Assembly: GCA_019637115.1 (NCBI GenBank)
Contig: JAHBWH010000026.1
Span: forward strand, 1-63,805
Length of the DNA stretch: 63,805 bases
Reading direction: 5' to 3'
Source: Myxococcales bacterium
GTDB taxonomy: Bacteria; Myxococcota_A; Polyangia; Polyangiales; Houyiibacteriaceae
A program made the translations under genes and the position numbers. Under the pieces are notes generated by a model that saw only the letters and a program-made list of their open reading frames with translations, was not told the DNA's origin and did no database searches. This document shows, one piece after another, positions 3,016 to 53,826 of the stretch. The stretch's first letter is position 1, and each line of letters opens with the position of its first letter.

Positions 3016-3241
3016 CTTCCCTCCACCGCGCCCACGGCTCACCGACCTTGTACGCGCGAACTGTGCTCACAGGCAAGCAACATTTTTCCATCCGAAGCGG
3101 TCAGGCCGAGGTCCGACGCGCGGGGCCGACGTCGAGGTCGAGGACCGCGATCAACCGGTCGAGATACCTGTGGCGAGGCACGAGCCGTCCGCGGGAGCCC
3201 GTGACTGGCGATCGCGCGAGCGCTCGGTGTACAAGGCCCGC

Positions 3242-14455: not shown

Positions 14456-15118
14456 TCAGGGGAGCGTGGTCGCGGTGAGCACGACGTCCCGCTCCCACCG
14501 GACGCTCCCTTCGATCACGTCGCCGACGGCGAACGAGGCCCCGCTCGGCTGCTCGAAGGTCGCCCGCCACGTCCCGCGCAGAGGATCGACCTCGACGCTC
14601 ATCGCCATGAACCCGAGGAACTGCTGGGTCACCAGGTATTGCGCCTTGTACGCGCACTCCTTTGCGCTGAAGATCGCCTTGGCGAGCCGGCCGCGCTCGT
14701 CCGAGGCGCGGGCGGCAAGCCACGCGAGATCCCGCGGCGTGCAGATGCTCTCCCAGAGCTTCGGCGCGAGGGGCTCCGCGTTCTCGACGTCGATCCCGAC
14801 GGCGCGCACCTGCCGAGCCGGCGCGACCGCGGCGGCGCACCACGTCTTCGTGTGCGTGATCGACCCGACGATCCCCGCCGGCCAGACCGGCGCGCGATCC
14901 GCGCCCATCGGGATCTCCAGCGGGCCGACGCCGAGCGTCCCCATCGCCCGACGAGCGAGCGCACGGCCGAGCGCGAACTCCCGCTGACGCGAGACGATCG
15001 CCTTCGCCATCCGCTCGGCTTCGCCCGGATAGAGCGCGTCGAGGTCGACGTCCGCCGTGCGCGGGTCGTCCTCTTCGACCCGCACGACCTCGGGGAGGAT
15101 CGCGCGGAACGGCGTCAT
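14456..15118 (-). CDS. 4'-phosphopantetheinyl transferase (Sfp/EntD type)
   Basis: The 220-residue product transfers phosphopantetheine from CoA to carrier-protein serines. Diagnostic motifs are present: SITHTKTWCAAAV (about 86-98), VGIDVE (about 107-112) with the Mg-binding acidic pair, and FSAKECAYKAQY (about 150-161). Length and motif spacing fit the EntD/Sfp branch that serves secondary metabolism. Its ATG overlaps the stop of the upstream gene by four bases (ATGA), and the NRPS is one gene further upstream. It is therefore very likely the activator of the NRPS and PKS carrier domains in this window. Confidence 0.93.
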   Translation of the reverse strand: MTPFRAILPEVVRVEEDDPRTADVDLDALYPGEAERMAKAIVSRQREFALGRALARRAMGTLGVGPLEIPMGADRAPVWPAGIVGSITHTKTWCAAAVAPARQVRAVGIDVENAEPLAPKLWESICTPRDLAWLAARASDERGRLAKAIFSAKECAYKAQYLVTQQFLGFMAMSVEVDPLRGTWRATFEQPSGASFAVGDVIEGSVRWERDVVLTATTLP

Positions 15119-15702
15119 CGCGGGACCATCGACTCACGCGGCGTCGGCGTCCACGAGACGCGGAGCTCGAGGAAAGGCGCGTCGCCGCCCCCGTGGACGT
15201 CCGTGACCACGACGTCGTCCGCGCCGGTCGCCTCGACCACGCCGTGGAGCCCGCCGCGGAAGTGGTCCCAGACGACGGCAGGGATCGGCGTGGCCGCGTC
15301 GTAGCGGCGGTGCTGGTGCGCCTCTCCGCGATCGACCAGGCGACACGAGAGACCCTCGAAGCTGCTCGGCAAGAGGGCGACGGAGCGTCCGAGCACCTCG
15401 TGCGGTCGCAAGAGACGCGGAGAGACGCTCGCGTCCCGGGCGAGGCGCCGGAACGCGAGGTCGGAGGTCGCGCGCGCGAGCTCGCGCACGGCCTCGGGCC
15501 GACCGCTCACGTCGATGATGGCCTCGTCGACCAGCGCCAACCAGAGCACGGGGTACCAGCCGCCCGCGACCACTTGCGCGAGCGCCTTGGCGACGCCTTG
15601 GCTCCGCGCAGCGAGCGCCTCGCGGACGGGCTCGATCCCGTGGGCGGCGCTCGCTTCGCGGAAGAAACCCGCGAGCAGCTGTCCCGAGACCTGAACGTGC
15701 AC
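15115..15702 (-). CDS. Unknown protein between NRPS and PPTase (DUF2378-like layout, uncertain)
   Basis: The 195-residue protein starts at GTG 15702, seven bases after the NRPS stop, and ends inside the start of the PPTase gene, so it belongs to the operon. It is mainly helical in the first half (an Ala-rich LALVDEAIIDVSGRPE region), with a C-terminal beta part (VWDHFRGGLHGVVEAT, then FLELRVSW). This resembles the layout of the TIGR02265/DUF2378 family that is expanded in myxobacteria, but I cannot confirm membership. It has no signal peptide or membrane span and no catalytic motif I recognise. A regulatory or accessory role in the operon is only inference. Confidence 0.7.
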   Translation of the reverse strand: MHVQVSGQLLAGFFREASAAHGIEPVREALAARSQGVAKALAQVVAGGWYPVLWLALVDEAIIDVSGRPEAVRELARATSDLAFRRLARDASVSPRLLRPHEVLGRSVALLPSSFEGLSCRLVDRGEAHQHRRYDAATPIPAVVWDHFRGGLHGVVEATGADDVVVTDVHGGGDAPFLELRVSWTPTPRESMVPR

Positions 15703-15708: not shown

Positions 15709-18700
15709 TCAGCTCCCGCGTCGCCGCCGCATCAGGTCACGCCGGGCAGCAGCGCGCGCCGCCGCCTTGCCGAGCTCCTGGTGATCGTCGCCCTCCCCTT
15801 CGAGATGACGCGCGAGGTCGCCGAGCACGGGGAAGCGGAAGATGTCGGTGATCGCGAGGCTGGCCCCCGCGAACGCCGCCTTGAGCTCGCGGTGCGCCTG
15901 CACGGCCAGCAGCGAGTGCCCGCCGAGGTCGAAGAAATGATCCTTCGAGCCCACCTGCGAGACGCCGAGGACCTTCTGCCAGACCTCGGCGATCTTGCGC
16001 TCCGAGTCGCTCTCGGGCGCGACGTGCTCGGCCGCTCGCGCGACCTTCACCTCGTCGGGCCTCGGGAGCTTCTTGCGGTCCACCTTCGCGTTCGGCGTGA
16101 GCGGGAAGCTGTCCAAGGTGACGAAGTGGCTCGGGACCATGTACTCGGGCAGCGAGGACGCGAGGTGACGCTTGAGCGCCTCCTCGTCGACCTCCGCGTG
16201 TGTCGTCAGATAGGCGACGAGGCGCTTGTCCCCCGGCGTGTCCTCCCGGGCGATCACGACCGCCTCGCGCACCTCCGGCAGCTCGTTGAGCCGCGACTCG
16301 ATCTCGCCGAGCTCGATCCGGTAACCACGCAGCTTCACCTGGTGGTCGACGCGCCCGAGGAAGTCGAGGACGCCGTCCGCGCGCCATCGGACGAGATCCC
16401 CCGTCCGATACATCCGCCCCCCCTTCACGAAGGGGTTGGCGACGAAGCGCTCCTTCGTGAGCTCGTCCCGGAAGAGGTAGCCGCGCGTCACGCCCGCGCC
16501 GCCGATGTAGAGCTCGCCCGGGACGCCGACCGGCACGGGCTCGAGGTTCGCGTCGAGCACGTAGAGCTGCGTGTTCGCGATCGGGGTGCCGATCGGCGTG
16601 ATGCCGTCACCCGGCTCGGCCGTGTGTGTCGACGACCAGATCGTCGTCTCCGTCGGCCCGTACATGTTCTCGATGCGCGCCCCGGTCAGCGAGCCGAGCT
16701 CCTTGACGAGCGCGCCCGGCAGCGCCTCGCCGCCGATCATGAAGCAGCGCAGGCCTCGGAGCGCCCCGCGCGCGCGATCGTCGAGCGTGAGCAAGCGGGC
16801 CATCGAGGGCGTGCACTGGAGGTGCGTGACTCGCTCACGGTCGAGCTGCGCCGGAACGCTGAAGTCCTCCGAGGGGAGCGTGCTGACCCGGACCGGCTCG
16901 GAGGTCTCGCGGATCACCTCGCCGACCCGCCGGATGCTCTCGAGGACCTTGGGCGTCGGCACGCCATAGTCCACGAGGCACGCGATCTCGTCGACGCCGA
17001 TGGCCTTGAGCTGATTGACCCGACGGACGGCGTCCTCGACGGTCCCGAAGAAGCCGCTGTCCTCGAAGTAGCGGAGGAACGCGAAGTCGAGGATCGCCTC
17101 CATCTCCTCCTCGTCGAGCGAGCGAAGATCGAGGTCGAAGGGGTTCTCCACCCCCTTGGGCTTCTTGAAGGCGGGGAAGGCCCACGCGTATTGCTTGATG
17201 AGCCCCGCGGCGCTGCGGAGGTAGCCCTTCATCGGCTCCCGCGCGACCTCGCGCGCCTTCTCGCGCGTCTCGTCGAGGTAGGTGTGGAGCATCAGCGTGA
17301 CCTTGTAGTCCGCCGGGTTCTTCCCCTGAGCCACCAGCTCTTCGCGGTAGATGCGGATCTTGTCGGCGACCTCGTCGATCGACTGGCCGAGCAGGTGGGT
17401 CAGCACGTTCGAGCCCGCGCGCGCGGCGTCGCGGTAGGTCTCGGGGTTGCCCGCGGTGGTCACCCAGACGTCGAGCTCGCGGCTGACCGGGCGAGGCTGC
17501 GTGACGACCGAGAGCACCGACCCGTCGGCCCGCCCCGTCGGGAAGTCGACCGCCTCGCCGCGCCAGAGCCGCCGCACGACGTCGATCGAGTCGAGCATCG
17601 CCTGCTTGTTGTTCGGTGGCGCGTTCTCGGGCCGCAGGACGAAGTCGTCGGGCTGCCAACCGGACGCGAAGGCCAGGCCGACGCGGCCGTTCGAGAGGTT
17701 GTCGATGATCGCCCACTCCTCGGCGATCCGGATCGGGTGGTGGAGCGGCGCGACGCAAGAGCCCGCGCGGATGTCGAGGTTCTGCGTGACGGCAGCCACC
17801 GCCGCGCCGGTCACGCTCGGGTTCGGGTACGGGCCGCCGAACGCGTGGAAGTGGCGCTCGGGGGTCCAGACGCTGGTGAAGCCGATGCGGTCACCGAGCT
17901 TAGCGCCCTCGAGGAGCACCTCGTACTTCTTCGGGCCCTGCCCGTCGTCGTTGCCCCAATACATCAGGCCGAACGCCATGGGCTTGGCGGCGATCTCGGG
18001 GTCGACCCCGGCCGGCTTCACGCGCTCGCGCTCGCGATGGACGACCACCTTGAACCCGCGGGCGAGCGTCCAGAAGAGCTCGAGCACGGAGATGTCGAAC
18101 GAGAGGCTCGTCACCGCCAAGAGCACGTCCTGGCTTCCGTCCTCGGCGCGCGGGACGCGGGCGTCCATCCCCGTGAAGAAGTTCGAGGCGTTGCGGTGCT
18201 CGACCATCACGCCCTTCGGGCGCCCCGTGGAGCCCGACGTGTAGATCACGTAGGCGAGGTGTTCGGGTCGCGACGTCTCGCCGACGCGATGCGCGGGGGC
18301 GCGCGGGATGTGCGGATCGGCGTCGACGACGATCACCGTCGCGTCCGTGTGCAGGCGCGCCTTCGCCTCCTGGTGGGTGACGACGATCTTCGCGCGGCTG
18401 TCCTCGAGCATCAGCTCGATGCGGTCGGCGGGGTACTCGGGATCCAGCGGCAGGTACGCCCCGCCCGCCTTCAAGATGCCGAGCGCGCCCGTGACGAGCT
18501 CGAGCGAGCGCTGGCAGTAGAGCCCGACGACGGCGTCCGGCCCCACGCCGTGCTGCCGGAGCACGTGGGCGACGCGGTTCGCGCGCTGATCGAGCTCGCG
18601 ATAGGTGAGCTCGAGGCCCTCGAAGACGAGCGCGACCGCGTCTGGGGTGCGATCGACCTGCTCTTCGAAGAGCTGATGCATGGTGGCGTCGGCGCGGTAG

Positions 18701-20274
18701 GGCGTGCCCGTCGCGTTCCACTCGTGGAGGATGCGGCGCCGCTCGACGTCGGTGAGCAGCGGCAATTTGGCGACGAGCGTCTCGTCCTCACCCGTCGCCG
18801 CGAGCAGCACCGAGAGCCGACGCACGAGCGCCTCGACCTCGTCCGTGGAGATCCGTCGCGCGTCGTAGTGGACGGCCGCCTCGGCGAGGGTGAGCGCCGA
18901 GCCCTCCACGAGCGCCGTCGCGGCAGGCGCGATCACGACGTCGAAGCGGGCGGTCGTGGCGGCGGGCCTCCGCGCGACGAGGTCCCGCGGGAAGGTGAAG
19001 CGCTCGTGGACCCGCGCCAGCTCCTTGTCGAGGAGCGCCTGCGCGTCTCCGACCGTCCCCGACACGTCGACGAGGAGCGGCACGGCCGGCGCGAAGAAGT
19101 CCTCGACGCCCACGACGGCGTCGCCGAGGCGCGCGCCGCGATACCCGACGTGGAAGTGGGTCTTGCCACCGACCCGCCCGAGGAACGCGGCGACGCCCGT
19201 GACCCACGCGGGCCCCTCGAGGCCGCTCGGCGCGAGCTCGAGCTGGGCCGGCTCCGCGCCGGCGCCCGCCGTGACGCCTGGCACCTCGACGACGTCGAGC
19301 TCCTCGAGGCGCTTGGCCCAGAAGTCCTCGTGCTTCGCCGCCTCGGCGTTCTTCTCGGTCAAGGTCGCGCGGAGCGCAGCGTCCGGGGTGGGCAGCGTCA
19401 GCCCGACGAGCGTCGAAGGGCAGCGCGGCTTGCCCTCGAGATCGCTGAGCGCGAGCAGCTTGACCGCCCCCGTGCCGCACGCGACGACCGCGCCCTCGGG
19501 GGTGGCCTCGAGCACCTTGCCGATGGGTCCGCTCGCCGAGCTGGGCTCCGCCGCCCGGATCAGCACGACATCGCCGGGCCCGACGAGGACCTTCGGCAGC
19601 CCGAGCGGGTTGGGGTACTTCGGGCCGTAGTCGAGCGCGCGAACGGGGACGACGATCGACTCGGCGTCCTGGGCCCAGTCGACGAGCGCCATCGCCTCGG
19701 GGCGATCGTTCTTCGCGAAGTAGGTGCGGCGCGAGAGATCTTGCGGGACCCCCTTGCCCTCACCCCGCTCGATCTTCTCGAGCACTTCGGGAAACGACTC
19801 GATGGCCGCCTCGTAGCAGCGCTGGTTGAGCTCGAGCGCGGTCGCGAGCTTCGGGACCTCGAAGAAGCGCTGGGCGAGCACGGCGCCCTCGTCGACGCCG
19901 CCCTCGATGCGGTGCCAGGTCACGCCGTGCTGGGGCTCGCGGTTCAGCAGCGCCCAGTTCGGCGCGTTGAGCCCGGCGTACTTCGGCAGCGGGCCATCGT
20001 GGAAGTTCACCGCGCCCTGGCGCGCGCGCGCGAGGATCGCGTCGGGGACGATGCGGAGGTTCGCGATGGAGAAGAACCAGTCGAACTCCTCGCTGAGCCG
20101 CTCCGCGAGCCCCTTGCCGGGCTCGAGCACCGGGATGCCCCGACCGCGCGCCCACGAAGCGATGTCGCGGTTGTCGGTGATGACCCCCCGCACGGTGTGC
20201 CCGCGCTGCAGGAGGATCTCGGCGCACTGCACGAGCAGCGACTCGGCGCCCATCAGGTAGGAGCTGAAGCTCAT
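15709..20274 (-). CDS. NRPS: formyltransferase / C-lobe / A domain with inserted luciferase-like monooxygenase / PCP
   Basis: This 1521-residue protein opens with a 10-formyl-THF formyltransferase domain keeping the catalytic Asn90, His92 (NFHDGPLPKYAG) and Asp128 (EGGVDEG), with its C-terminal part to about 285. A stretch at about 320-480 resembles only the C-terminal lobe of a condensation domain, without HHxxxDG. The A domain follows, with A3 YTSGSTGRPKG at 678. Between A4 (FDISVLELFW) and A5 (YGPTE at 1205) sits a luciferase-like monooxygenase of about 355 residues (766-1120) of the MupA/Atu3671 type. A8 is near 1318, A10 has NAKVDRKK, and the carrier Ser is 1454 in LGGHSL. There is no thioesterase. 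I infer it loads an amino acid, N-formylates it and oxidises it on the carrier. ATG 20274 has AAAGG upstream; the longer frame upstream lacks homology. Confidence 0.95.
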   Translation of the reverse strand: MSFSSYLMGAESLLVQCAEILLQRGHTVRGVITDNRDIASWARGRGIPVLEPGKGLAERLSEEFDWFFSIANLRIVPDAILARARQGAVNFHDGPLPKYAGLNAPNWALLNREPQHGVTWHRIEGGVDEGAVLAQRFFEVPKLATALELNQRCYEAAIESFPEVLEKIERGEGKGVPQDLSRRTYFAKNDRPEAMALVDWAQDAESIVVPVRALDYGPKYPNPLGLPKVLVGPGDVVLIRAAEPSSASGPIGKVLEATPEGAVVACGTGAVKLLALSDLEGKPRCPSTLVGLTLPTPDAALRATLTEKNAEAAKHEDFWAKRLEELDVVEVPGVTAGAGAEPAQLELAPSGLEGPAWVTGVAAFLGRVGGKTHFHVGYRGARLGDAVVGVEDFFAPAVPLLVDVSGTVGDAQALLDKELARVHERFTFPRDLVARRPAATTARFDVVIAPAATALVEGSALTLAEAAVHYDARRISTDEVEALVRRLSVLLAATGEDETLVAKLPLLTDVERRRILHEWNATGTPYRADATMHQLFEEQVDRTPDAVALVFEGLELTYRELDQRANRVAHVLRQHGVGPDAVVGLYCQRSLELVTGALGILKAGGAYLPLDPEYPADRIELMLEDSRAKIVVTHQEAKARLHTDATVIVVDADPHIPRAPAHRVGETSRPEHLAYVIYTSGSTGRPKGVMVEHRNASNFFTGMDARVPRAEDGSQDVLLAVTSLSFDISVLELFWTLARGFKVVVHRERERVKPAGVDPEIAAKPMAFGLMYWGNDDGQGPKKYEVLLEGAKLGDRIGFTSVWTPERHFHAFGGPYPNPSVTGAAVAAVTQNLDIRAGSCVAPLHHPIRIAEEWAIIDNLSNGRVGLAFASGWQPDDFVLRPENAPPNNKQAMLDSIDVVRRLWRGEAVDFPTGRADGSVLSVVTQPRPVSRELDVWVTTAGNPETYRDAARAGSNVLTHLLGQSIDEVADKIRIYREELVAQGKNPADYKVTLMLHTYLDETREKAREVAREPMKGYLRSAAGLIKQYAWAFPAFKKPKGVENPFDLDLRSLDEEEMEAILDFAFLRYFEDSGFFGTVEDAVRRVNQLKAIGVDEIACLVDYGVPTPKVLESIRRVGEVIRETSEPVRVSTLPSEDFSVPAQLDRERVTHLQCTPSMARLLTLDDRARGALRGLRCFMIGGEALPGALVKELGSLTGARIENMYGPTETTIWSSTHTAEPGDGITPIGTPIANTQLYVLDANLEPVPVGVPGELYIGGAGVTRGYLFRDELTKERFVANPFVKGGRMYRTGDLVRWRADGVLDFLGRVDHQVKLRGYRIELGEIESRLNELPEVREAVVIAREDTPGDKRLVAYLTTHAEVDEEALKRHLASSLPEYMVPSHFVTLDSFPLTPNAKVDRKKLPRPDEVKVARAAEHVAPESDSERKIAEVWQKVLGVSQVGSKDHFFDLGGHSLLAVQAHRELKAAFAGASLAITDIFRFPVLGDLARHLEGEGDDHQELGKAAARAAARRDLMRRRRGS

Positions 20275-20422: not shown

Positions 20423-21433
20423 TCACTCTCCGGTGATGCTGAGGAGCAGGGCGGCCGTGAGCGCGATGTTCGCCGGGTCGGTGATGATGGAGCTGACGCG
20501 ACCCAGCACCTCGCCGACGTGGGCGGTCCACTCCTCGGTGACGTAGAGGATGTCGCCGGACGCCAGCAAGACGTCGCTCCGGTTGCCGTTGACGATCGCG
20601 CGGAGGCTGGCGCGGTAGACGAGCGGCCGGTCGAGCGAGCCTCGGACGATGTGGATGTCCGTCCGGTCGCCGCGCTCGTTCAAGCCTCCGGACCGGGCGA
20701 GCGCCTCCGTCAAGCGCATCCCGTCACGATAGGCGAGCACGCGCGGCGTGCCCACCGCGCCGAGGACCACGATGGCGCGATCCCGAGCCGTCGGGACGTA
20801 GAGGTGGTCTCCTGGGAGAACCCGGACGTTGTGGCGCGGGTCCCCCTCGAGCGCGAGAGACATGGAGATGGGCAGGGTCCGGCCGCGCCTGACGATCCGA
20901 GCGCTGCCGAGGTCCGCGATGGGCCCCGTCGACGGCCCCGAGGGCTCGACGGTGTCCGCCGGCCCCTCGACGGCCGCGATGAGATCCGCCACCCGCATGC
21001 CTGGCGTCACCAGGACGCGGCCGGGGGAGCGCACGGCGCCCACGACGGTCGCCCGGTGCCCCACGGGGTCCGAGATCGAGAGCGCGACCTGCACGACGCG
21101 GTCGATCCGCCGCATCGCGTCCCGAATGATCACCTCGGCCTCCGAGAGCGGTCGCCCGCCGACGTCGACCGCGCCGACGAGCGGCAGGTGCGCGTTGCCC
21201 TGCTCGTCGACGACGATTCCCTCGTGCACGGTCACCTCGGCCGAGAACGCCCGGATCGTGAGCACGTCACCCGGGAGCACCATCATCGGCACCGGCGGGG
21301 TGTCGTCCATCCCCTCTTGTGCCGCGACGGGCGGCGCGGTGAACGCGCCATCGTCCGTCGGAAGCGTGGGTGCGTCCGGAAGGCGCACGCACGCGCACGT
21401 GAGGATCCATCCCACGACGAGCCCCTGCCTCAT
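20423..21433 (-). CDS. Outer-membrane polysaccharide export protein (Wza/OPX family)
   Basis: The 336-residue protein begins with a hydrophobic signal (MRQGLVVGWILTCAC) and a Pro-rich linker. The polysaccharide-export domain follows (MMVLPGDVLTIRAFSAEVTVHEGIVVDEQGNAHLPLVG), then two SLBB-type segments: VVGAVRSPGRVLVTPGMRVADLI, and VLGAVGTPRVLAYRDGMRLTEALARSGGL. The C-terminus carries a moderately hydrophobic segment. OPX proteins form the outer-membrane exit for Wzx/Wzy glycans with a Wzc/Wzz partner, here probably the protein at 31494. ATG 21433 was chosen for the signal peptide; ATG 21475 is possible. It is divergent from the initiating sugar transferase (167-base gap). Confidence 0.9.
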   Translation of the reverse strand: MRQGLVVGWILTCACVRLPDAPTLPTDDGAFTAPPVAAQEGMDDTPPVPMMVLPGDVLTIRAFSAEVTVHEGIVVDEQGNAHLPLVGAVDVGGRPLSEAEVIIRDAMRRIDRVVQVALSISDPVGHRATVVGAVRSPGRVLVTPGMRVADLIAAVEGPADTVEPSGPSTGPIADLGSARIVRRGRTLPISMSLALEGDPRHNVRVLPGDHLYVPTARDRAIVVLGAVGTPRVLAYRDGMRLTEALARSGGLNERGDRTDIHIVRGSLDRPLVYRASLRAIVNGNRSDVLLASGDILYVTEEWTAHVGEVLGRVSSIITDPANIALTAALLLSITGE

Positions 21434-21600
21434 GGGTGCGTTTAGTACCAGGGTCGCGCGGGCCAATCCAGCCATTCTCGAACCTTGCACCCCGTCGACG
21501 GGCCCGGTAAGTACCGGCTCGGGCGCATGTCGAACGAGCCAACGAGGGGGACGAGAGGGCGAGCGCCCGAGGCCCCCGGCCCCACAACCAGATTTCTCCG

Positions 21601-23004
21601 ATGGCGGGTTGGGTGAGAGAGCATTCGCCGGTCCTGAACGTGGCCATGCGCCTCGTGGACGCAGCCCTGATCGCCGCCGTGCACTTCGTGGCGGTCACGC
21701 TCATCGCCAAGGAGGATTGGCGCGACCTCCACACCGAGGCCACCATCGTGGCGCTCGTGCTCTTCTACTTCGTAGGTCAGAGCATGGGCCTCTACGTCGC
21801 GTGGCGTGGCGGCACGACCACCCGCGAGACGGGGCGCGTGTTCGCGGCGTGGGCGCTGACGGCGGGCGTGCTCCTCATGCTCGGCTTCGTCTCGAAGCGC
21901 TCGGCGGAGTACTCGCGGCTCATCACGATCCTCTGGGCGTCGGGCTCGCCGCTCGCGCTCGCGCTCTGGCGCGGGTGCCTGCGCTTCGGCCTACGACAAG
22001 CGCGGATCCGGGGCCGCAACACCCGAACGGTCGCGATCGCCGGGCTCACCGAGCTCGGCGAGCGTGTCGCGCGGACGATCCACGACAGCCCGTGGCTCGG
22101 GATGCGCATCGTCGGCTTCTTCGACGACCGCTTCGAGGAGCGCTGCCACCCGATCCCCTCCGAGCTCGGCAAGCGCGAGGGCAACCTCGACGACGTGATC
22201 GACCTGGCGCGCAAGAACGAGGTCGACATCGTCTACATCGCGCTCCCGCTCCGCGCCGAGACGCGCGTCACCGACCTCGTGCGCCGGCTCGCGGACAGCA
22301 CCGCCAGCGTCTACATGGCGGCGGACTTCGACGCCTTCGATCTGCTCAGCGCGCGCTGGGGTCAGCTCGGCGGCGTCCCGGTCGTCAGCATCCACGAGAC
22401 ACCGTTCTACGGCGTCTCCGGCTGGCTCAAGCGGCTCGAGGACATCGTCGTCGGCTCGATGATCCTCGCCCTCATCGCCGTGCCGATGCTCTTCATCGCG
22501 CTCGGCGTGAAGCTCACCTCCAAGGGCCCCGTGTTCTTCCGGCAGCGGCGCTACGGGCTGAACGGCGAGGTCATCCACGTCCTCAAGTTCCGCTCGATGA
22601 CGGTGGCGGAGGACGGAGCCGACGTGAAGCAGGCGACGAAGAACGACCAACGCATCACGAAGTTCGGGGGCTTCTTGCGGCGGACCTCGCTCGACGAGCT
22701 CCCGCAGTTCCTGCACGTCATCACGGGCACGATGAGCATCGTCGGTCCGCGGCCGCACGCCGTCTCGCACAACGAGCAGTACCGCAAGCAGATCGAGGGC
22801 TACATGCTCCGCCACAAGGTCAAGCCGGGCATCACGGGCTGGGCCCAGGTCAACGGCTGGCGCGGCGAGACGGACACGCTCGAGAAGATGGAGCAGCGCA
22901 TCGCGCACGACCTCGCGTACATCCGCAACTGGTCGCTGCTCTGGGACCTGCAGATCATCTTCCTGACGGTCTTCGGCCGGAAGGTCCGCAAGAACGCCTA
23001 TTGA
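21601..23004 (+). CDS. Initiating undecaprenyl-phosphate sugar phosphotransferase (WcaJ/EpsZ-like)
   Basis: This 467-residue polytopic protein has four N-terminal membrane spans, a CoA-binding-like Rossmann domain (VAIAGLTELGERVARTIHD), a fifth span (about 285-310) and the C-terminal bacterial sugar transferase domain. That domain has GPVFFRQRRYGLNGE, LKFRSMTV, RRTSLDELPQFLHVITGTMSIVGPRP and KPGITGWAQVNGWRGET. Such enzymes place the first hexose-1-phosphate on undecaprenyl phosphate at the inner membrane and start each repeat unit. Of the proteins in this window it is the clearest start point of an exopolysaccharide pathway. The sugar (Glc or Gal) cannot be read. Confidence 0.95.
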   Translation: MAGWVREHSPVLNVAMRLVDAALIAAVHFVAVTLIAKEDWRDLHTEATIVALVLFYFVGQSMGLYVAWRGGTTTRETGRVFAAWALTAGVLLMLGFVSKRSAEYSRLITILWASGSPLALALWRGCLRFGLRQARIRGRNTRTVAIAGLTELGERVARTIHDSPWLGMRIVGFFDDRFEERCHPIPSELGKREGNLDDVIDLARKNEVDIVYIALPLRAETRVTDLVRRLADSTASVYMAADFDAFDLLSARWGQLGGVPVVSIHETPFYGVSGWLKRLEDIVVGSMILALIAVPMLFIALGVKLTSKGPVFFRQRRYGLNGEVIHVLKFRSMTVAEDGADVKQATKNDQRITKFGGFLRRTSLDELPQFLHVITGTMSIVGPRPHAVSHNEQYRKQIEGYMLRHKVKPGITGWAQVNGWRGETDTLEKMEQRIAHDLAYIRNWSLLWDLQIIFLTVFGRKVRKNAY

Positions 23005-23042: not shown

Positions 23043-23813
23043 TCAGCGGCGACGCAGCAGGCGCTGGCGCAGCGCGTCGGCGAAGAGCACCGCCGCGAAG
23101 GGCAGGTCGTCGATCAGGTAGCGCCGCACGAGGCGGTCGGGCTCTTGCACCATCCGGTGCACCCACTCGGTGCCGGTCCGCTGCATCCACGCGGGCGCGC
23201 GCTCGACCTGCCCCGCCAGGAAGCTGAAGGTGATGCCGACACCGATCATCCATGCCTGGGGATAGAGCGGCCGCAGGGCCGCGATGACCTCCTCCTGTTT
23301 CGGCGAGCCCATCCCCACGAAGAGGATGTCGGGAGCCTCCTCGCCGATCGCCTCTCGGAGCTCCTCGAGGTCACTGGGGGTCGGGGGGTTCGCGACGAAG
23401 GGGCTGGCCGTGCCGAGCACGCGGAGCTCGGGGTGCGCGCGCTCGAGGGCCGCCCGCGCGCCCTGCGCCGCCCCCTCGGCCCCCCCGAGGAGGAAGAGGC
23501 TCCGCCCCTCGCGCGCCGCCCGGCGGGCGATCTCCCCCGTCAACGTCGACCCCGCCACGCGCTCGGGGAGCGGCCGCCCCATCAGCTGCGACGCCCACAC
23601 GAGCGGCATCCCGTCGGCCACCCGCAGGTCGGCCGCGCCGTAGAGCCCGCGCGCGTGGGGATCGAGCGCCGCCCGGCGCACGATGTCGAGGTTGGCCGTC
23701 ACGAGCCACCCCCCTTCCCCGCGGCCGAGCGAGGCGAAGAGGTGCTCGAGGAGGTCCTCGGAGCCGCAGGACGCGAGGCGCATGCCCAAGAGCTCGATGT
23801 CCGGGAAGTTCAT
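23043..23813 (-). CDS. WecG/TagA/CpsF family glycosyltransferase
   Basis: The 256-residue length is typical of the family that adds the second sugar, often ManNAc or ManNAcA, to a lipid-linked first sugar. Motifs are clear: WLVTANLDIVRRA (about 36-48), ADGMPLVWASQLMG, FLLGGAEGAAQGA, GMGSPKQEEVI, GVGITFSFLAG and APAWMQRTGTEWVHRM followed by RRYL, which marks the membrane-binding C-terminus. It is convergent with the initiating transferase (38 bases apart) and divergent from the PKS. It is probably the second step of repeat-unit assembly. Confidence 0.92.
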   Translation of the reverse strand: MNFPDIELLGMRLASCGSEDLLEHLFASLGRGEGGWLVTANLDIVRRAALDPHARGLYGAADLRVADGMPLVWASQLMGRPLPERVAGSTLTGEIARRAAREGRSLFLLGGAEGAAQGARAALERAHPELRVLGTASPFVANPPTPSDLEELREAIGEEAPDILFVGMGSPKQEEVIAALRPLYPQAWMIGVGITFSFLAGQVERAPAWMQRTGTEWVHRMVQEPDRLVRRYLIDDLPFAAVLFADALRQRLLRRR

Positions 23814-23933
23814 GCGCCTTTCGTACTACGGCCGGCGCGCCTCGCAGGCCGAAATGACGCGGCACACCTCACGCACCTCGCGTGCGTGCTGGACGCCGCG
23901 CCTGTGGTATGTCGCCCGGTGGAGGGTCACGAC

Positions 23934-30491
<6,558 letters not shown>

Positions 30492-30496
30492 GACCG

Positions 30497-31453
30497 ATGA
30501 AGCTCGTGACGATCCTCCTCAACTGGCGCACCCCCGACATGACCCTCGACGCGCTCGCCTCCGGGCTCCGCGCGCTCCAGGCGGTCGACGGGGAGTGGCG
30601 CGTCACCGTCGTCGACAACGACTCCCAGGACGGCAGCGAGGCGCGGCTGCGCGAGGCGGTCGACGCGGCGCGCGCGGCGGGAACGCCGGGCTACGACCGC
30701 GTCGAGGTCGTGCAGAGCGGGCGCAACGGCGGCTTCGGCGCCGGCAACAACGTCGGCATCCGCCGCGCGCTCGGCTCGGGCGATCCCCCCGAGTACGTCT
30801 ACATCCTCAACTCCGACGCCTTCCCGGCCGAGGACGCGATCCGTCGCCTCGTCGCGCACCTCGACGCTCACCCCGAGGTCGGCATCGTCGGCAGCTACAT
30901 CCACGGGACGGACGGGGAGCCCCACGTCACGGCGTTTCGGTTCCCGAGCATCGGCTCGGAGATCGAAGGCAGCCTGCGCCTCGGCGTCGTCACGAAGCTG
31001 CTGCGCGAGCACACCGTGCCGATGGGGATCCCCGAGCGCACGACCGAGGTCGACTGGCTCGCGGGCGCGAGCATGATGATGCGGGCGTCGATGCTCCGTC
31101 AGATCGACCTCTTCGACGAGACCTTCTTCCTCTACTTCGAGGAGACCGACCTCTGCCGCCGCGCCCAGGACGCGGGCTGGAAGGTCGTCTACGTGCGCGA
31201 CAGCCACGTCGCGCACATCGGCTCGGCGTCGACCGGCATGAAGACCTGGAGCCGAGTCCCCGGCTATTGGTTCGACTCGCGGCGGCACTACTTCGCGAAG
31301 AACCACGGCCGCGCATATCTCTCGCTCGCGACCGCGGCGCTGGCCGCGGGGACCGCGGTCTGGCAGGTGCGACGCCGCCTGCAGGGCAAACCCGACGAGG
31401 CGCCGCCGGGCTTCTTGACGGATCTGATCCGCCACGCGCTGCCGCGACGCTGA
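30497..31453 (+). CDS. Glycosyltransferase family 2, rhamnosyltransferase-like
   Basis: The 318-residue protein resembles WbbL-type rhamnosyltransferases: MKLVTILLNWRTPDMTLDAL, VVDNDSQDGSE, QSGRNGGFGAGNNVGIRRAL, the metal motif ILNSDAF (about 96-102), DWLAGASMMMRASMLRQIDLFDE, FFLYFEETDLCRRAQDAGWKV, and the conserved HIGSAST. It starts six bases after the PKS stop on the same strand, so the two are probably cotranscribed. That places an acyl-making enzyme and a sugar-transfer enzyme in one unit. GTG 30488, overlapping the PKS stop, is an alternative start. Confidence 0.9.
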   Translation: MKLVTILLNWRTPDMTLDALASGLRALQAVDGEWRVTVVDNDSQDGSEARLREAVDAARAAGTPGYDRVEVVQSGRNGGFGAGNNVGIRRALGSGDPPEYVYILNSDAFPAEDAIRRLVAHLDAHPEVGIVGSYIHGTDGEPHVTAFRFPSIGSEIEGSLRLGVVTKLLREHTVPMGIPERTTEVDWLAGASMMMRASMLRQIDLFDETFFLYFEETDLCRRAQDAGWKVVYVRDSHVAHIGSASTGMKTWSRVPGYWFDSRRHYFAKNHGRAYLSLATAALAAGTAVWQVRRRLQGKPDEAPPGFLTDLIRHALPRR

Positions 31454-31493: not shown

Positions 31494-33458
31494 TCACTCG
31501 CGGACGCAAGCCCAGAACGCCTCGACGGGGCCAACCCGGTCGTCTTGCTCGGCGTATTCGTCGGCGACGTCGATCAAGACGTAGCCGACCCCGCGGGTGC
31601 GGCCGAGGCGCGTCTTCACGTCCTTCAGCTCGAGCGCGGAGGTGACGTTGGCCGGGACGATCACGCAGACGCGGTCGGCAAGCCGCGCGGCTCGGCGCAG
31701 CGCCGGCCCAGAGTCCGCGCCCTCCCACGCCTCGACTTGGAGCTCCGGCGCGACCAGCTGGTCGACGTGGTGCGTCCGACCCGCGAGGGCGATCGCGTGG
31801 TGGTGCCCATACCCCCCGGCGTCGGGCGGCAACGACGGCGCCCGAAGGTCAGGCTCGTCGAAGGGCGACCCCCCCACCACGGTCGTGTCCACCCAGTCGT
31901 TGCTCAGGCGGCTCGCGAAGCGCATCGCGAGCTCGGGGGCTCCCTCGCCGAGCCCGACCACGAGCATCTTGCCCGCCGCGGTCGGGACGAAGTCGTCCAG
32001 ATCGGCGACGAGATCGTCGATCGCGTCGGGCACGCGCGGCCAGGTGCTGGTGCCGACGACGGGGCCCCGCCCCCAGAACGCGGCCTCCTTTGCGGTCCGG
32101 ATCTTCAGGCCGCGGAGCTCGCGGGCGAGCACGACCCCGAGCACGATGAACAGGAAGCCGAGCGGGAACGCCGCCGCGACGATGTACTTCTTCTTGGAGG
32201 CCTCGGGGAGCTCGGGCGGCGTCGCCTCGCTCATCGGCTGAAACCCGTGGTCCGGGTTCCTGAGCGCGTCCTCGAGCCTCGCCTTGCGGCCCTGCAGCTC
32301 CTGCATCAGCTGCTCGTTGACGCGCACCTCGGCCAGGAGCTGGCTGGCGTCGCCCTCGATGCTCGAGAACTGCTCGACGCGCTGCTGCGCCTCGCGGGCC
32401 AAGCGGGTCAGACCCTCGAGACGCTGACGCGCCGCCTCGAGGTCCGCCTGGCTCTGGCTCAAGGCAGCCTGCAGCGACATGTACTGCGTGCTCGCCGTCG
32501 CCGTCGCCGAGCGTGTCTTCTCGGCCTGGCCGGAGCGGATGCGCTCGTCCAGCGCGGCGATCTGCTGGCGGAGCGCCTGGACCCGAGGGTGATCGTCCGA
32601 GAGGCTCGAGCGCGCGCTGGCCAGCTCGGCCTGCAGCCGCCCTCGCTCGGTCTCCTCTGCGCTCGCCCCGACGGAAGCGCTCGCGAGCGCGGTGCGCGGC
32701 GTGCTGCGGAGGTCGCGGCGGAGCTGCTCGACGCGGGCCTCGAGGGCGTCGATCTCGGAAGCGGTCCGGTCCCGCGTCGCGCGGAGCTCCGCCGCCTGCT
32801 CGATGGCCGTCTCTTGTTCCGTCGTCAGGTCGGCGATGCCGTGTCGGTTCCGGAAGGTGTCGTAGGAGGTCCGCGCGGCGGTCACCGCGGCCTGCGCCGC
32901 CGTCAGGCGCTCCTCGATCGAGCCGATCGCCTCACGGATGCGCTCACGCTGCGCCTCGGTCTGGCGCTCCAGGAAGACCTGGACGACGGTGTTGGCGAAC
33001 CGGGCCGCCTCGTCGGCCTCCGTGGCCGTCGCGCTGATGCGAACGACCTGCGCGGGGTCCGCCTCGGCCTGGATCCACGTCCCGAGCACGTAGGTCGGGA
33101 CCTCGAGGCCCGTGCGCGAACCGATCTCGCGCAGGGAGCCCTCGACGAAGATGCCCTGCAGGAGCCCTCCGAGGGTCTGCGTGGCGTCCGAGGGCGCTCC
33201 GAGCCCCTCGATCGTCGGCAGGCCGCCAAAGCGGAGCATCGCGGTCGCGGTGTACGAACGCTTGATGGCGAACTTGGCGGTCGGGAGCCCGATCGCGGCG
33301 CCGACGATGAACGCGCCGAGCAGCCACCAACGGGCCGCGAGCAGGCAACGGACCACCCGCGTCAAATCGACGGGCGCGCCGTACTTCTCGTCGTCCTCCG
33401 TCGCCGGGGCCGGCGAATGGCCCTCCCCTGGGCCCAATCGACGAGGATCCGTTTCCAC
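31494..33458 (-). CDS. Wzz/Wzc-type chain-length protein without a functional kinase P-loop
   Basis: The 654-residue protein has the Wzz/Wzc layout: a first membrane span (WWLLGAFIVGAAIGLPTA, about 45-62), a Wzz head, about 200 residues of coiled coil (about 180-410), and a second span (YIVAAAFPLGFLFIVLGVVLA, about 435-455) preceded by a Pro-containing stretch. A cytoplasmic region follows where bacterial tyrosine kinases carry a Walker A motif. Here that place reads LVVGLGEGAPELAMRF, with no GKS/T, and no Tyr-rich tail is present. It probably controls chain length and couples to the OPX protein at 20423 without its own kinase activity. Confidence 0.88.
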   Translation of the reverse strand: METDPRRLGPGEGHSPAPATEDDEKYGAPVDLTRVVRCLLAARWWLLGAFIVGAAIGLPTAKFAIKRSYTATAMLRFGGLPTIEGLGAPSDATQTLGGLLQGIFVEGSLREIGSRTGLEVPTYVLGTWIQAEADPAQVVRISATATEADEAARFANTVVQVFLERQTEAQRERIREAIGSIEERLTAAQAAVTAARTSYDTFRNRHGIADLTTEQETAIEQAAELRATRDRTASEIDALEARVEQLRRDLRSTPRTALASASVGASAEETERGRLQAELASARSSLSDDHPRVQALRQQIAALDERIRSGQAEKTRSATATASTQYMSLQAALSQSQADLEAARQRLEGLTRLAREAQQRVEQFSSIEGDASQLLAEVRVNEQLMQELQGRKARLEDALRNPDHGFQPMSEATPPELPEASKKKYIVAAAFPLGFLFIVLGVVLARELRGLKIRTAKEAAFWGRGPVVGTSTWPRVPDAIDDLVADLDDFVPTAAGKMLVVGLGEGAPELAMRFASRLSNDWVDTTVVGGSPFDEPDLRAPSLPPDAGGYGHHHAIALAGRTHHVDQLVAPELQVEAWEGADSGPALRRAARLADRVCVIVPANVTSALELKDVKTRLGRTRGVGYVLIDVADEYAEQDDRVGPVEAFWACVRE

Positions 33459-36365: not shown

Positions 36366-37793
36366 CTACGCTCGCGCGCGGCGCCGAGCGCGCGTAGCTT
36401 CCGCGGGCGGGAGGCTCCAAGCGCCGTCCGCGCGACGCGCTTCCTGCAGCGCGCCGAGGAGCCCGCCCGCGAAGAGGAAGGGGTACGTCGCCCAGAGGCC
36501 ATTGGGGACGAGGTCGAGGGTGAGCATCGCGCAGATGAGGCCGAACCCGAGCAGCAGCGTGCGGTCTCGCTCGTAGGGGAACGCGAGGACGCGCCGCCGG
36601 AGCACGAAGAGCGGCACGAGCAGGAAGCCGAAGCAGGTGATCATGCCGATCACGCCGTGCAGGCCGAGCACGATGATCCAGTGTCCATCCGCGATCGTGA
36701 TCTCCTTGCCCATCTCGTCGTCGTAGACGCTGTTCCGACCCATCCCGCCCCAGCCGAACCACAGCCGCTCGCGTGCCTTGTCGAGGAGCAGCTTCTCGTT
36801 GTCGAAGCGGAACTCGAGCGACTGCGCGCGCTCCTCACCGAACGCCGCCTGAGCCTGCTCCACCAGCGCCTCGGCGGGGAAGAGGTCGAACGCGCGCAGC
36901 GCGGGGTAGATCGCGACGAAGAGCGCGATCGCCATCACGACGCGCGCCTGCAGCTTGTGCGAGCCGCGCGCGAGCAGCGGCCCGAAGACGACGGCGTAGA
37001 GGATCGCGCCCGTGCTCTTGCAGAGGATCAGCACGACGAAGAGCACCCACGAGACCCGCTTCGCGCTCCACTTCCGGATGGGCTCACCGAGCTTGGCGAG
37101 CGTGATGGCCGCGAGCAGCACCGCCGTCATGAAGAGCGCGAGCGCGAGGCCGTGCGCCATGAAATTCATCGGGCGGAAGCCGCCCCAACGCATCGTCTGC
37201 AAAAAATCCGAGTGCGCCCCGTAGCCGTAGACCCAGACGTGCCACTGCGGGCTCATGCGGATCTCCACGAGGAGCAGCGCCGTCTGCACGAACCCAGCGA
37301 TCACCAAGAAGTGAAGCAGGTCGAGCAGATCGCGCCGCGTGCGGAAGAGCGCCCGGCCGAGGACGAAGGGGATGCCATAGGACAGGAGCGCGACGAAGCC
37401 GTATTGGAAGCCGTCGTTGAACTGGAGACCGGGGATCATCGTGACGCGCCAGCTGCCGTACCGGAGAGCGTCCGTGTTGGTCTGCCAAGTGACGAAGCCC
37501 GCGATGATGGCGACGACGACGAGCAGGTCGATGCCACGCCACGCCTTCGCTCGGCGGAGCGCCGCGCGCCATCGCACGATCGCGATGGCGAATAGGACCA
37601 CGTAAGGGATGTTGTTCTTGTCGAGCGGCGGGACCATGGGCAGCTTGATGAACGCCCCCTCCGGCCCGAAGAGGGTCCCGAAGAAGACCACGTAGAGCGC
37701 CGCGATCTGGGGCCGCTTGGACCACGTGACGTAGGCCGCGAGCGGGATGATCGAGAGGAGCGCGAGGAGCGCGAGCGGGGTCCATTCACCCAC
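36366..37793 (-). CDS. O-antigen polymerase/ligase-like membrane protein (Wzy/WaaL family)
   Basis: The 475-residue protein has about ten to twelve hydrophobic spans and a large loop before the last spans (about 325-385) with RFDNEKLLLDKARERLWFGWGGMGRNSV. The pattern of an acidic/basic loop with an E-rich start and a FGWGGMGRN segment is typical of Wzy_C/WaaL proteins. In a Wzx/Wzy pathway it would polymerise flipped repeat units in the periplasm. Polymerase and ligase activity cannot be told apart from sequence. With Wzx, Wzz and OPX genes close by and no lipid A-core genes visible, polymerase is more likely. It is convergent with the SGNH-like gene. Confidence 0.85.
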   Translation of the reverse strand: MGEWTPLALLALLSIIPLAAYVTWSKRPQIAALYVVFFGTLFGPEGAFIKLPMVPPLDKNNIPYVVLFAIAIVRWRAALRRAKAWRGIDLLVVVAIIAGFVTWQTNTDALRYGSWRVTMIPGLQFNDGFQYGFVALLSYGIPFVLGRALFRTRRDLLDLLHFLVIAGFVQTALLLVEIRMSPQWHVWVYGYGAHSDFLQTMRWGGFRPMNFMAHGLALALFMTAVLLAAITLAKLGEPIRKWSAKRVSWVLFVVLILCKSTGAILYAVVFGPLLARGSHKLQARVVMAIALFVAIYPALRAFDLFPAEALVEQAQAAFGEERAQSLEFRFDNEKLLLDKARERLWFGWGGMGRNSVYDDEMGKEITIADGHWIIVLGLHGVIGMITCFGFLLVPLFVLRRRVLAFPYERDRTLLLGFGLICAMLTLDLVPNGLWATYPFLFAGGLLGALQEARRADGAWSLPPAEATRARRRARA

Positions 37794-38034: not shown

Positions 38035-39258
38035 ATGAAGCTCGCGTACCTGGTCAACCAATATCCGAAGATCAGCCACAGCTTCATCCGTCGGGAGATC
38101 CTCTCGATCGAATCGGCGGAAGGTACCCCCGTCGCGCGCATGTCGGTGCGCCGCGTCGACGAGCCGCTCGTCGATCCGGAAGACCAGCTCGAAGCGGAGC
38201 GAACGCGCGTCGTCCTCGACGTTGGCGCGGCGGCGCTGCTCCGCGACACCGCGATGGTCGCCGCGCGGCGTCCGGCACGGTTCCTCCGCGCGCTCAAGGC
38301 GACGGTGAAGCTCGGTGCGCGCTCCGACCGCGGGGTCCTGCGACACCTCGCGTACCTCGCGGAGGCCTGCACGACCGCGCGCTGGTCCGAGGCCGAAGGG
38401 GTCGATCACCTCCACGCTCACTTCGGGAGCAATTCGGCGGCGGTCGCGATGCTGACCCACGAGCTCGGCGGACCGAGCTACAGCTTCACTGCGCATGGCA
38501 CCGAGACGTTCGACTACCCCCCGTTCATCGGGATCGCGGACAAGGTCGCCAACGCGGCGTTCGTCGTCGCGGTGAGCGAGTACGGCCGAAGCCAGCTCTG
38601 CCGGTGGTCGGAGCAGGAGCATTGGGACAAGATCCACGTCGTCCGGTGCGGCGCCGACGAGGCCTTCTTGGCGGAGGAGCCGACGCCCTTGCCCGACGAG
38701 CCTCGCCTCGTGTGCGTGGGCCGGCTGAGCGGCGAGAAGGGTCACCTCGTCCTGATGCAGGCGGCGGCCGCGCTCGCGCGGCGCGGCGTCGACTTCCAGC
38801 TCGACCTGGTCGGGGATGGCGACCTGCGTGCCCCCATCGAGCGCTTCATCGCAGACCACGGCCTCGAAGATCGAGTGCGCCTGCTCGGATGGGGCAGCGC
38901 GGAGCAGGTCCGCGACGCGATCCGCGCCTCGCGCGCGCTGGTCCTTCCGAGCTTCATGGAGGGGCTCCCCGTCGTGCTGATGGAGGCGTTCGCGCTCGGC
39001 CGCCCCGCGATCGCGACGCACGTCTCCGGGATCCCGGAGCTCGTCGTCCCCGGCGCGAGCGGCTGGCTCGTCCCCGCCGGGGCCGCCGAGCCGCTCGCCG
39101 ACGCGATGCAAGAGGTCGTGCAGGCGAGCGTGCCCCGCCTCACCGAGATGGGCATGCGTGGGCGCGAGGCGGTGCGCGAGCGCCACGACGCGGACCGTGA
39201 GGCGCGACGCTTGCTCGACCTCTTCCACCGCTACGCCGCGTCGCCCCAGGCGACCTGA
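38035..39258 (+). CDS. Glycosyltransferase family 4 (WcaL/ExoL-like)
   Basis: The 407-residue GT-B enzyme has an N-terminal motif characteristic of exopolysaccharide transferases (YLVNQYPKISHSFIRREI, about 5-22), HLHAHFGSNSAAVAML, and YSFTAHGTETFDYPP. Its donor lobe has LVCVGRLSGEKGHLVLM, LLGWGSAEQVRDAIRASRALVLPSFMEGLPVVLMEAFALG and GIPELVVPGASG, the E-x7-E region of family 4. It probably adds a sugar to the lipid-linked repeat unit at the cytoplasmic face. It is the first of five genes on this strand, with the Wzx gene 31 bases downstream. Confidence 0.93.
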   Translation: MKLAYLVNQYPKISHSFIRREILSIESAEGTPVARMSVRRVDEPLVDPEDQLEAERTRVVLDVGAAALLRDTAMVAARRPARFLRALKATVKLGARSDRGVLRHLAYLAEACTTARWSEAEGVDHLHAHFGSNSAAVAMLTHELGGPSYSFTAHGTETFDYPPFIGIADKVANAAFVVAVSEYGRSQLCRWSEQEHWDKIHVVRCGADEAFLAEEPTPLPDEPRLVCVGRLSGEKGHLVLMQAAAALARRGVDFQLDLVGDGDLRAPIERFIADHGLEDRVRLLGWGSAEQVRDAIRASRALVLPSFMEGLPVVLMEAFALGRPAIATHVSGIPELVVPGASGWLVPAGAAEPLADAMQEVVQASVPRLTEMGMRGREAVRERHDADREARRLLDLFHRYAASPQAT

Positions 39259-39289
39259 TCCTCTCCCGACGCGCACGCCCGAGCCTGTC

Positions 39290-40669
39290 ATGGCCGACTC
39301 CCACGACACCGAGCCCGCGAACGACGAGATGCGCGAGCGCCACTCGCGCCTGAAGCGACTCGCGGTGCGCGGGTCGCTCTTCGAGATGCTCGCGTACGTG
39401 CTCGGGCAGGTCCTCCGCCTCGGCGGCAACCTGATCCTCACGCGCCTCCTCTTCCCCGAGGCGTTCGGCCTGATGACGACGCTGACGGTGTTCAACACCG
39501 GCCTCATCATGCTCTCGGACGTCGGCATCGAGCAGTCCGTCATCCAGAACGAGCGCGGCGACGAGCCCGTCTTCGCGAACACCGCGTGGACGCTGCAGAT
39601 CGTGCGAGGCCTCTCCCTCTACGGCGTCGCGCTGGCCCTCACGTGGCCGATGGCGCAGCTCGAAGGAGTCCCCGAGCTCCTCTGGCTCATCCCGGTCGGC
39701 GCGCTCTCGGTCCCCATCGCGGCCCTGAGCAGCACCGCCGAGTTTGCGCTCCGCCGACAGGTGAGGGTCGGACGCCTCGTCGGCCTGGAGCTCGCCTCTC
39801 AGGCCGTGGCGCTCGGCGTGATGCTCGCGTGGGCGTGGGTGCACCCGAGCATCTGGGCCCTCATCGTCGGCAACATCGCCCGCGAGATCTTCCGGACGAT
39901 CGCGTCTCACCTCGTGCTCGTCCCCGGGTACCGCAACCGGCTCTCTTGGGACGCCGCGGCGCGAGCGGAGATCATCGCCTTCGGACGCTGGATCCTCGGC
40001 TCCTCGGCGGTCTTCTTCTTGGCCGGCTTCGCCGATCGCCTCCTGCTGCTCCCCTTCCTCCAGGCGGGCGGGCTTGGCATCTACTCCATCGCCGCGCTCC
40101 TCACGGAGTCCGCCTTCACGGTGATCGGGAAGATCACCCACGGCGTGCTCTTCCCGATCTTCAGCCGCATCCGGCTCGACGGCGTCGACCGGCTCCAAGA
40201 GGTCTACTATCAGGCCCGGCTGCGCCTCGATCTGCTCGCCCTCGGCGGCGTGGGCGCCCTCTTCATGGTCGGGCCGCGGCTCATCGACTTCCTCTGGGAC
40301 GACCGGTACCACGAGGCCGGATGGATGCTGCAGATCCTCTGCGTGAAGGCCGCCACCCGGAGCGTCTTCGACCCCGCCGACAAATGCCTGGTCGCGCTCG
40401 GTCGGGTCCGCACGAGCTTCATCAACAACGCCGCGCGCACGGTCTTCCTCTTCGCGGGCGTGCCCATCGGCTGGCACTTCCTCGGGGAGGAGGGCGTGGT
40501 GTGGGGGGTCGTCGCCTCCGATCTCCCGTGCGCGTTCATCCTCTGGACCGCGCTCTGGCGCGAAAAGGTGCTCCGCGTCGATCGCGAGCTGCTCGCGTGG
40601 GTCTTCTTCGGCGCGGGCCTCGGGGTCGGCTTCGGGGTCGACGCGCTGCTCGCGCTCCTGCTCCCTTGA
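39290..40669 (+). CDS. Polysaccharide flippase (Wzx-like, PST family)
   Basis: The 459-residue protein has about twelve hydrophobic segments and no soluble catalytic domain. The first helix region reads LAVRGSLFEMLAYVLGQVLRLGGNLILTRLL and is followed by FPEAFGLMTTL, typical of the oligosaccharide flippase family that moves undecaprenyl-linked repeat units across the inner membrane. The loop IEQSVIQNERGDEPVFANTAW is common in this family. ATG 39290 was chosen as the first Met after the preceding stop. With the Wzy-like, Wzz-like and OPX proteins it completes a Wzx/Wzy export set. Confidence 0.9.
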   Translation: MADSHDTEPANDEMRERHSRLKRLAVRGSLFEMLAYVLGQVLRLGGNLILTRLLFPEAFGLMTTLTVFNTGLIMLSDVGIEQSVIQNERGDEPVFANTAWTLQIVRGLSLYGVALALTWPMAQLEGVPELLWLIPVGALSVPIAALSSTAEFALRRQVRVGRLVGLELASQAVALGVMLAWAWVHPSIWALIVGNIAREIFRTIASHLVLVPGYRNRLSWDAAARAEIIAFGRWILGSSAVFFLAGFADRLLLLPFLQAGGLGIYSIAALLTESAFTVIGKITHGVLFPIFSRIRLDGVDRLQEVYYQARLRLDLLALGGVGALFMVGPRLIDFLWDDRYHEAGWMLQILCVKAATRSVFDPADKCLVALGRVRTSFINNAARTVFLFAGVPIGWHFLGEEGVVWGVVASDLPCAFILWTALWREKVLRVDRELLAWVFFGAGLGVGFGVDALLALLLP

Positions 40670-48710: not shown

Positions 48711-48936
48711 GGGACTCCTTCTCCGAGACATGCGGCCGATGGCGGCGGGACGATGAGCACTCTTCCGTGACGAGCGTGACACCCCGTCGGACCGGGGGGC
48801 AGTGTGCCGCATTCTCGAGGGGGGGGGACGAGGTGACGCTCGCGACCCGCAGGAACGACGCTCGCAACGCCCGCGCTTCCGAGCCGTTCGTCGTCGCGCC
48901 GAGAGCCTGCTACCGTGCCGCCCCGAGGTGTGGACG

Positions 48937-53745: not shown

Positions 53746-53826
53746 CCCGCTGCGGCTGCCGCCTCGGCCACGACGGAGCCTGTCTCCGCCGACGAGGCGC
53801 GGCTGCTCGACCTGTTCCGGGAGGTC

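Follow-up and report, generated by a model that had tools for sequence, protein, structure and literature searches.

The window analysed here (63,805 nucleotides, contig JAHBWH010000026.1 of a Myxococcales bacterium) encodes a 1521-residue protein which, judged by its sequence, is best read as a stand-alone NRPS starter module, combining a formyltransferase (FT), half a condensation (C) domain, an A domain interrupted by a luciferase-like monooxygenase, and a peptidyl carrier domain (PCP) (Table 1). This architecture is that of a conserved family and not of one lone protein, and its gene is found in most relatives near those for a partner PKS, a GT2 glycosyltransferase, a 4'-phosphopantetheinyl transferase (PPTase) and exopolysaccharide production. 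We consider the chances slightly better than even that the protein supplies a formylated, oxidised glycine starter to the PKS and that the extended unit ends in a secreted polysaccharide.

Table 1. Features located in the window, with the evidence for each
Feature	Position	Strand	Evidence
NRPS starter protein, FT - C-lobe - A(N) - monooxygenase - A(C) - PCP	15709..20274	-	ORF, domain searches, structure models
FT, ArnA/Fmt-type with C-terminal subdomain, residues 1-296	19387..20274	-	Pfam; model pLDDT 94.8; ArnA Z 26.9
C-domain C-lobe without N-lobe or HHxxxDG, residues 297-520	18715..19386	-	hhalign; profile alignment
A domain first part, A1-A4, residues 530-755	18010..18687	-	Pfam; structural alignment
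MupA/Atu3671-type luciferase-like FMN monooxygenase (TIGR04020), residues 768-1119, between A4 and A5	16918..17973	-	457 bits
A domain remainder, A5-A10, residues 1139-1410, code DILQMGMIWK	16045..16860	-	code reading; structural alignment
Peptidyl carrier domain, residues 1427-1491, serine in GGHS	15802..15996	-	Pfam; family alignment
4'-phosphopantetheinyl transferase	14456..15118	-	domain search; homologues in relatives
Short protein without family; homologue at same place in close relative G206	15115..15702	-	homology
Partner PKS, KS-AT-KR-DH-ACP-TE	23900..30491, start estimated	+	domain search; homologues in relatives
GT2 glycosyltransferase overlapping PKS stop	30488..31453	+	domain search; homologues in relatives
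Wza-type polysaccharide export protein	20423..21490	-	domain search
Polyprenyl-phosphate sugar transferase (initiating)	21601..23004	+	domain search
WecG/TagA/CpsF glycosyltransferase	23043..23813	-	domain search
Wzz-like chain-length protein (weak)	31494..33458	-	domain search
Wzy/O-antigen ligase-like polymerase (weak)	36366..37793	-	Pfam Wzy_C 21.2 bits vs cut-off 31.7
GT4 glycosyltransferase	38035..39258	+	domain search
Wzx-type oligosaccharide flippase	39158..40669	+	domain search
Second NRPS, C-A, HHxxxDG present, code DVEQVGAITK	50821..53745	+	domain search; code reading
PCP-TE, in frame with 50821-53745	53746..54804	+	domain search
Paralogue, FT - C-lobe - A without monooxygenase, cut by window/contig start	1..3042	-	domain search

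The starter protein opens with an ATG at 20274, which aligns with M1 of six other relatives, and its GC content by codon position (0.72/0.46/0.94) supports the reading frame as coding. Pfam places Formyl_trans_N at residues 73–165, Formyl_trans_C at 194–282, AMP-binding in two stretches (best 536–752, the remainder beyond the insert; 1139–1340 by TIGR01733), AMP-binding_C at 1324–1397 and PP-binding at 1427–1491, and domain searches of the 1521 residues returned no thioesterase. These calls agree with a preliminary description of the locus, which had reported a single protein with FT, split A domain with monooxygenase, and carrier but no thioesterase.

The FT is of the complete ArnA/Fmt kind with its C-terminal subdomain, since residues 3–295 of a model of residues 1–540 (mean pLDDT 94.8) superpose on ArnA 1z7e over 282 residues (Z 26.9, 2.8 Å); ArnA with bound N5-formyl-THF (2bln) is matched with Z 26.6. 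The catalytic residues N90, H92 and D128, already noted as intact in the preliminary description, are identical in all 74 family members. In sequence the domain resembles formyltransferases for sugars and for methionyl-tRNA more than the FT of LgrA (among solved structures, ArnA 69 bits versus LgrA 29 bits), which counts against our preferred explanation, and sugar N-formyltransferases make up a large share of the fold-search list. Together with the polysaccharide locus, this would fit an FT whose substrate is a polysaccharide amino sugar and not PCP-bound glycine, its fusion serving co-regulation only. We regard that as very improbable, as the FT is fused to an A-PCP module in every full-length relative, and the same FT/C-lobe/A(N) arrangement occurs in NRPS or NRPS/PKS proteins from rhizobia and Streptomyces, with polysaccharide genes at none of the three loci read.

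Between the FT and the A domain, residues 297–520 align to positions 172–454 of full C domains (hhalign probability 97.4%), a stretch that begins downstream of the HHxxxDG site, and so the C-lobe without HHxxxDG that had been described earlier is borne out. Profile alignment also places these residues in the C domains of Txo1 and McyB; as the VIA-align of residues 1–540 covered chiefly the FT part, the assignment comes from profile alignment and not from a fold search. The sequence of the C-lobe is poorly conserved, and it is probably a scaffold.

The insert in the A domain matches TIGR04020 with 457 bits against a curated cut-off of 244.45, over model positions 1–339 of 341. At 352 residues it is close to the 355 or so estimated previously, and it does lie between A4 (FDIS, 726–729) and A5 (NMYGPTE, 1203–1209). 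The nearest solved monooxygenase by sequence is 6ket (PuwE; 343 bits), on which the model superposes as a luciferase-like fold (TM 0.87 of target, 44% identity). Judged at the level of the fold, the models give no sign of the blocked THF or FMN site that the preliminary description had allowed for, the FT model matching 2bln and the monooxygenase model 6ket. The model of residues 525–1521 is weaker (pLDDT 82.6, pTM 0.52); in it 397 residues of the A core around the insert superpose on solved A domains (1.4 Å, Z 52.2), and on this model the A domain is otherwise complete.

Its substrate is very probably glycine, a prediction from the ten-residue code, DILQMGMIWK, which is one position off the DILQLGMIWK reported as common to four monooxygenase-bearing A domains that activate glycine (PMC12283262). 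Among 74 full-length members (the window protein and 73 relatives) the code reads DILQMGMIWK in 50, DILQLGMIWK in 13, DILQFGMIWK in 10 and DILQLGLIWK in one, so that eight of ten positions are invariant, position 299 is M, L or F, and position 322 is L once. The carrier serine, the glycine-type code and the FT Asn, His and Asp are kept in all 74, and in view of this invariance of catalytic residues we reject the reading of an inactive scaffold.

Embedded monooxygenases of this kind sit in glycine-recruiting A domains and hydroxylate Cα (PMC11342130), and MupA, the namesake of the family, alpha-hydroxylates a carrier-bound thioester in vitro (PMC10952193). MupA, however, was active only on a beta-keto ACP substrate (PMC10952193), and for the related LLMs CalD and MndB chain shortening has been proposed (PMC8739492). 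The insert could by that token carry out a Baeyer–Villiger reaction or rearrangement, or act in trans on a later beta-keto intermediate of the PKS as MupA does. We think this improbable, since the reported target of copies embedded in glycine A domains is the glycine Cα (PMC11342130) and the code here belongs to the monooxygenase-bearing glycine class; the beta-keto requirement of MupA nevertheless counts against hydroxylation of an N-formylglycyl unit, which has no beta-keto group.

Identity across the whole protein is about 48–75% in several phyla, which excludes a chance origin of the architecture; complete relatives within the taxonomic family of the window fall at 48 to 75%, and the best match in a plasmid collection has 54% identity over 98% of the length. 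Of 282 genomes sampled from the phylum of the window, 25 have a TIGR04020 match above the cut-off, and almost all of these matches lie in frames of about 1400–1700 residues. Named genomes were scanned as well and yielded 80 loci, in Rhodobacterales, Hydrogenophaga and other Burkholderiales, Myxococcota and Hyphomicrobium, and in single MAGs labelled Chloroflexota or Verrucomicrobiales.

The surroundings of the gene were compared at 67 loci with at least 18 kb of sequence, where homologues of the window genes were sought within about 10 kb. A homologue of the KS-AT-KR-DH-ACP-TE PKS was found at 65 of these, and GT2 and PPTase homologues at 61 each; at one locus without a nearby PKS (L036, on a contig of G182) the PKS and GT2 genes lie about 55 kb off in the same region. 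The commonest order is PKS, GT2, NRPS, PPTase on one strand. In the window itself the NRPS (minus strand) and PKS (plus strand) are on opposite strands with other genes intervening, and the PKS frame formally opens at 23145, with homology beginning near 23960. Across 73 PKS proteins the catalytic residues (KS Cys/His/His, AT Ser, KR Tyr, DH His/Asp, ACP Ser and TE Ser/His) are conserved with few exceptions. The window copy has a few extra residues between the catalytic His of the dehydratase and its Gly/Pro motif, absent from the other relatives printed, and its DH activity may therefore differ or be weak; this and the opposite strands count against the preferred pathway. The earlier reading of the protein held up in its domains and intact catalytic residues, and its proposal that the product is handed to another protein gains support from the conserved partner PKS with thioesterase, to which the unit would be passed; it had overlooked the predicted preference for glycine, the cassette of PKS, GT2 and PPTase genes, the surrounding exopolysaccharide genes and the existence of a family.

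An initiating sugar transferase, a Wza-type export protein and a flippase are all present at the window locus. Exopolysaccharide marker genes lie near the NRPS at 63 of the 67 loci, which were picked by similarity to the window protein and are mostly from Rhodobacterales. As a control, 39 other 20-kb regions from 16 of the same genomes were searched with identical queries and thresholds; an exopolysaccharide marker turned up in one of them, and a match to the PKS, GT2 or PPTase in none. With the marker set narrowed to Wza, Wzx, Wzy, WecG and the sugar transferase, 54 of the 67 cassette loci are positive (Fisher p 2e-16 versus the control regions, a value that overstates the evidence because related loci are not independent, although the direction is clear). 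Annotated loci of Ruegeria, Parasedimentitalea, Paracoccus, Aminobacter and Shinella have the cassette amid sugar transferases, flippases, O-antigen ligases or export proteins. It is this gene neighbourhood that suggests a link between cassette and polysaccharide.

It is also conceivable that the starter chemistry is as we propose while the product is a free small molecule, such as a siderophore, a signalling compound or an antibiotic, to which the GT2 enzyme may add a sugar; the exopolysaccharide genes would then only happen to share an accessory region or a plasmid with the cassette. Free products are the rule for thioesterase-containing NRPS-PKS cassettes, and many relatives are on plasmids rich in accessory genes. 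We nevertheless rate this as somewhat unlikely, given the contrast between cassette loci and random regions and the recurrence of the exopolysaccharide pattern in Rhodobacterales, Burkholderiales and Myxococcota; moreover, the GT2 gene lies between the PKS and NRPS genes in most relatives, and no siderophore receptor is annotated in the polysaccharide-linked regions read.

The same locus encodes two related proteins (35208–36344 and 42735–43739, plus strand) in which the motifs GHSLV and DxIH are invariant, a pattern like that of SGNH esterases; homologues of the two directly follow the PPTase in many relatives. They had no Pfam match and nothing significant in a PDB profile search, and are candidates for acyl transfer to, or removal from, the polysaccharide. 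A trypsin-like protease with a MopE-type metal-binding motif (48802–50766) and a large sulfatase-family protein (46317–49166) are also encoded there.

In the pathway that we favour, the A domain would adenylate glycine and load it on the carrier, the N-terminal domain would transfer a formyl group from 10-formyl-THF to the glycyl amine, and the embedded FMNH2-dependent monooxygenase would then hydroxylate Cα of the N-formylglycyl thioester. What passes from PCP to KS would be an N-formyl-alpha-hydroxyglycyl unit or, if formamide is lost first, a glyoxylyl thioester, two forms to which we give about even odds. The partner PKS would carry out one extension, ketoreduction and perhaps dehydration, its thioesterase would release or transfer the extended unit, and the GT2 and Wza/Wzx/Wzy gene products would couple it to a secreted polysaccharide or incorporate it in one.

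A special case of this pathway would make the first two enzymes a deamination device, in which N-formylation supplies the N-acyl group that this type of oxygenase acts on and formamide is expelled upon Cα hydroxylation, leaving glyoxylyl-PCP as the real starter. In myxothiazol and melithiazol assembly, Cα hydroxylation of an N-acylglycyl thioester cleaves the N–Cα bond, yielding an amide and glyoxylate that stays on the carrier (PMC11342130), and by analogy such a cleavage here would expel formamide and leave glyoxylyl-PCP. This would explain why an FT always accompanies the monooxygenase in the family (74 of 74 full-length members, a co-occurrence that is partly a selection effect as relatives were gathered by their FT domain). 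In the precedent, however, it is the completed chain that serves as acyl group while the glyoxylate is discarded, and we know of no KS for which acceptance of a glyoxylyl unit has been shown; we consider this special case unlikely.

Returning to the favoured pathway, the individual domains all have known relatives, while their combination (an FT, half of a C domain, and a glycine A domain interrupted by a monooxygenase) is undescribed as far as we found, no description of the starter protein or the cassette having been found in the open-licence literature. MtaG and MelG (myxothiazol and melithiazol) and proteins of corallorazine-like clusters likewise carry a monooxygenase inside a glycine A domain (PMC11342130), and the code class DILQ-GMIWK is common to these monooxygenase-bearing glycine domains and the window protein (PMC12283262). 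MtaG/MelG-type modules, however, perform elongation or termination on a finished chain, with a full C domain and an upstream acyl partner, whereas the window protein has a C-lobe only and an FT in starter position. Such inserts have been placed between A8 and A9 (PMC12283262); the A4/A5 position given here was checked in the window protein. MupA (mupirocin) and PuwE (6ket) share the monooxygenase family of the insert, the former acting in trans on beta-ketoacyl-ACP and the latter being described as the OX domain of a hybrid PKS/NRPS, and in the sources read neither is joined to an FT.

LgrA (linear gramicidin) likewise begins with an FT on a starter A-PCP, and its FT is joined directly to an A domain that loads valine. 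The window protein differs in its ArnA/Fmt-type FT with C-terminal subdomain, its 220-residue C-lobe spacer, its glycine code and its monooxygenase, and thus has neither the direct fusion nor the LgrA-like FT. FT-bearing NRPS of rhizobial and Mycetohabitans plasmids align with it end to end over FT, C-lobe and A start (30–35% identity), the alignment ending at A4 with no monooxygenase after it (L012–L014), and no exopolysaccharide genes were found near them at these loci. The same start opens large monooxygenase-free NRPS/PKS proteins on rhizobial, Mycetohabitans and Streptomyces plasmids, and represents a widespread kind of NRPS initiation module that has received little notice. In rhizobial capsule loci, RkpA-type PKS are type I PKS/FAS-like proteins serving a polysaccharide locus; to our knowledge these loci have no NRPS starter, FT or monooxygenase.

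Other candidate precedents were rejected. For althiomycin, N-oxidation by a separate Alb2 is proposed and no formyl step is named (PMC3445576); the palmerolide LLM lies in a PKS module without FT; that of ichizinone is stand-alone only; and the text on the Lysinibacillus ice-nucleation PKS/NRPS has neither LLM nor FT. For fabrubactin, passing mentions only were found, with nothing on an FT-C-lobe-A-monooxygenase architecture.

Two further NRPS loci lie in the window. The C-A protein at 50821..53745 has the sole full-length condensation domain found in the genome and is separated from the in-frame PCP-TE by a single stop (53743–53745), which may reflect a pseudogene, a real split or a sequencing error. 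The truncated paralogue at 1–3042 has lost the catalytic Asn of its FT (N90 to Ala; His and Asp kept), has the partial code DLENVGAVT and is probably degenerate.

The starter protein offers a compact system for learning how embedded monooxygenases act on glycine. The constant company of PKS, GT2, PPTase and exopolysaccharide genes suggests that in many marine and soil bacteria assembly-line enzymes modify polysaccharides of the cell surface, and points to slime or capsule being chemically decorated in a way not described before; culturable hosts (Ruegeria, Leisingera, Salipiger and Hydrogenophaga) provide scope for testing this. We tentatively propose, as a possibility that falls short of an even chance, that this widespread NRPS-PKS-glycosyltransferase cassette would place a glycine-derived acyl unit (N-formyl-hydroxyglycyl or glyoxylyl) covalently in exopolysaccharides, where it may decorate or prime a surface glycan.
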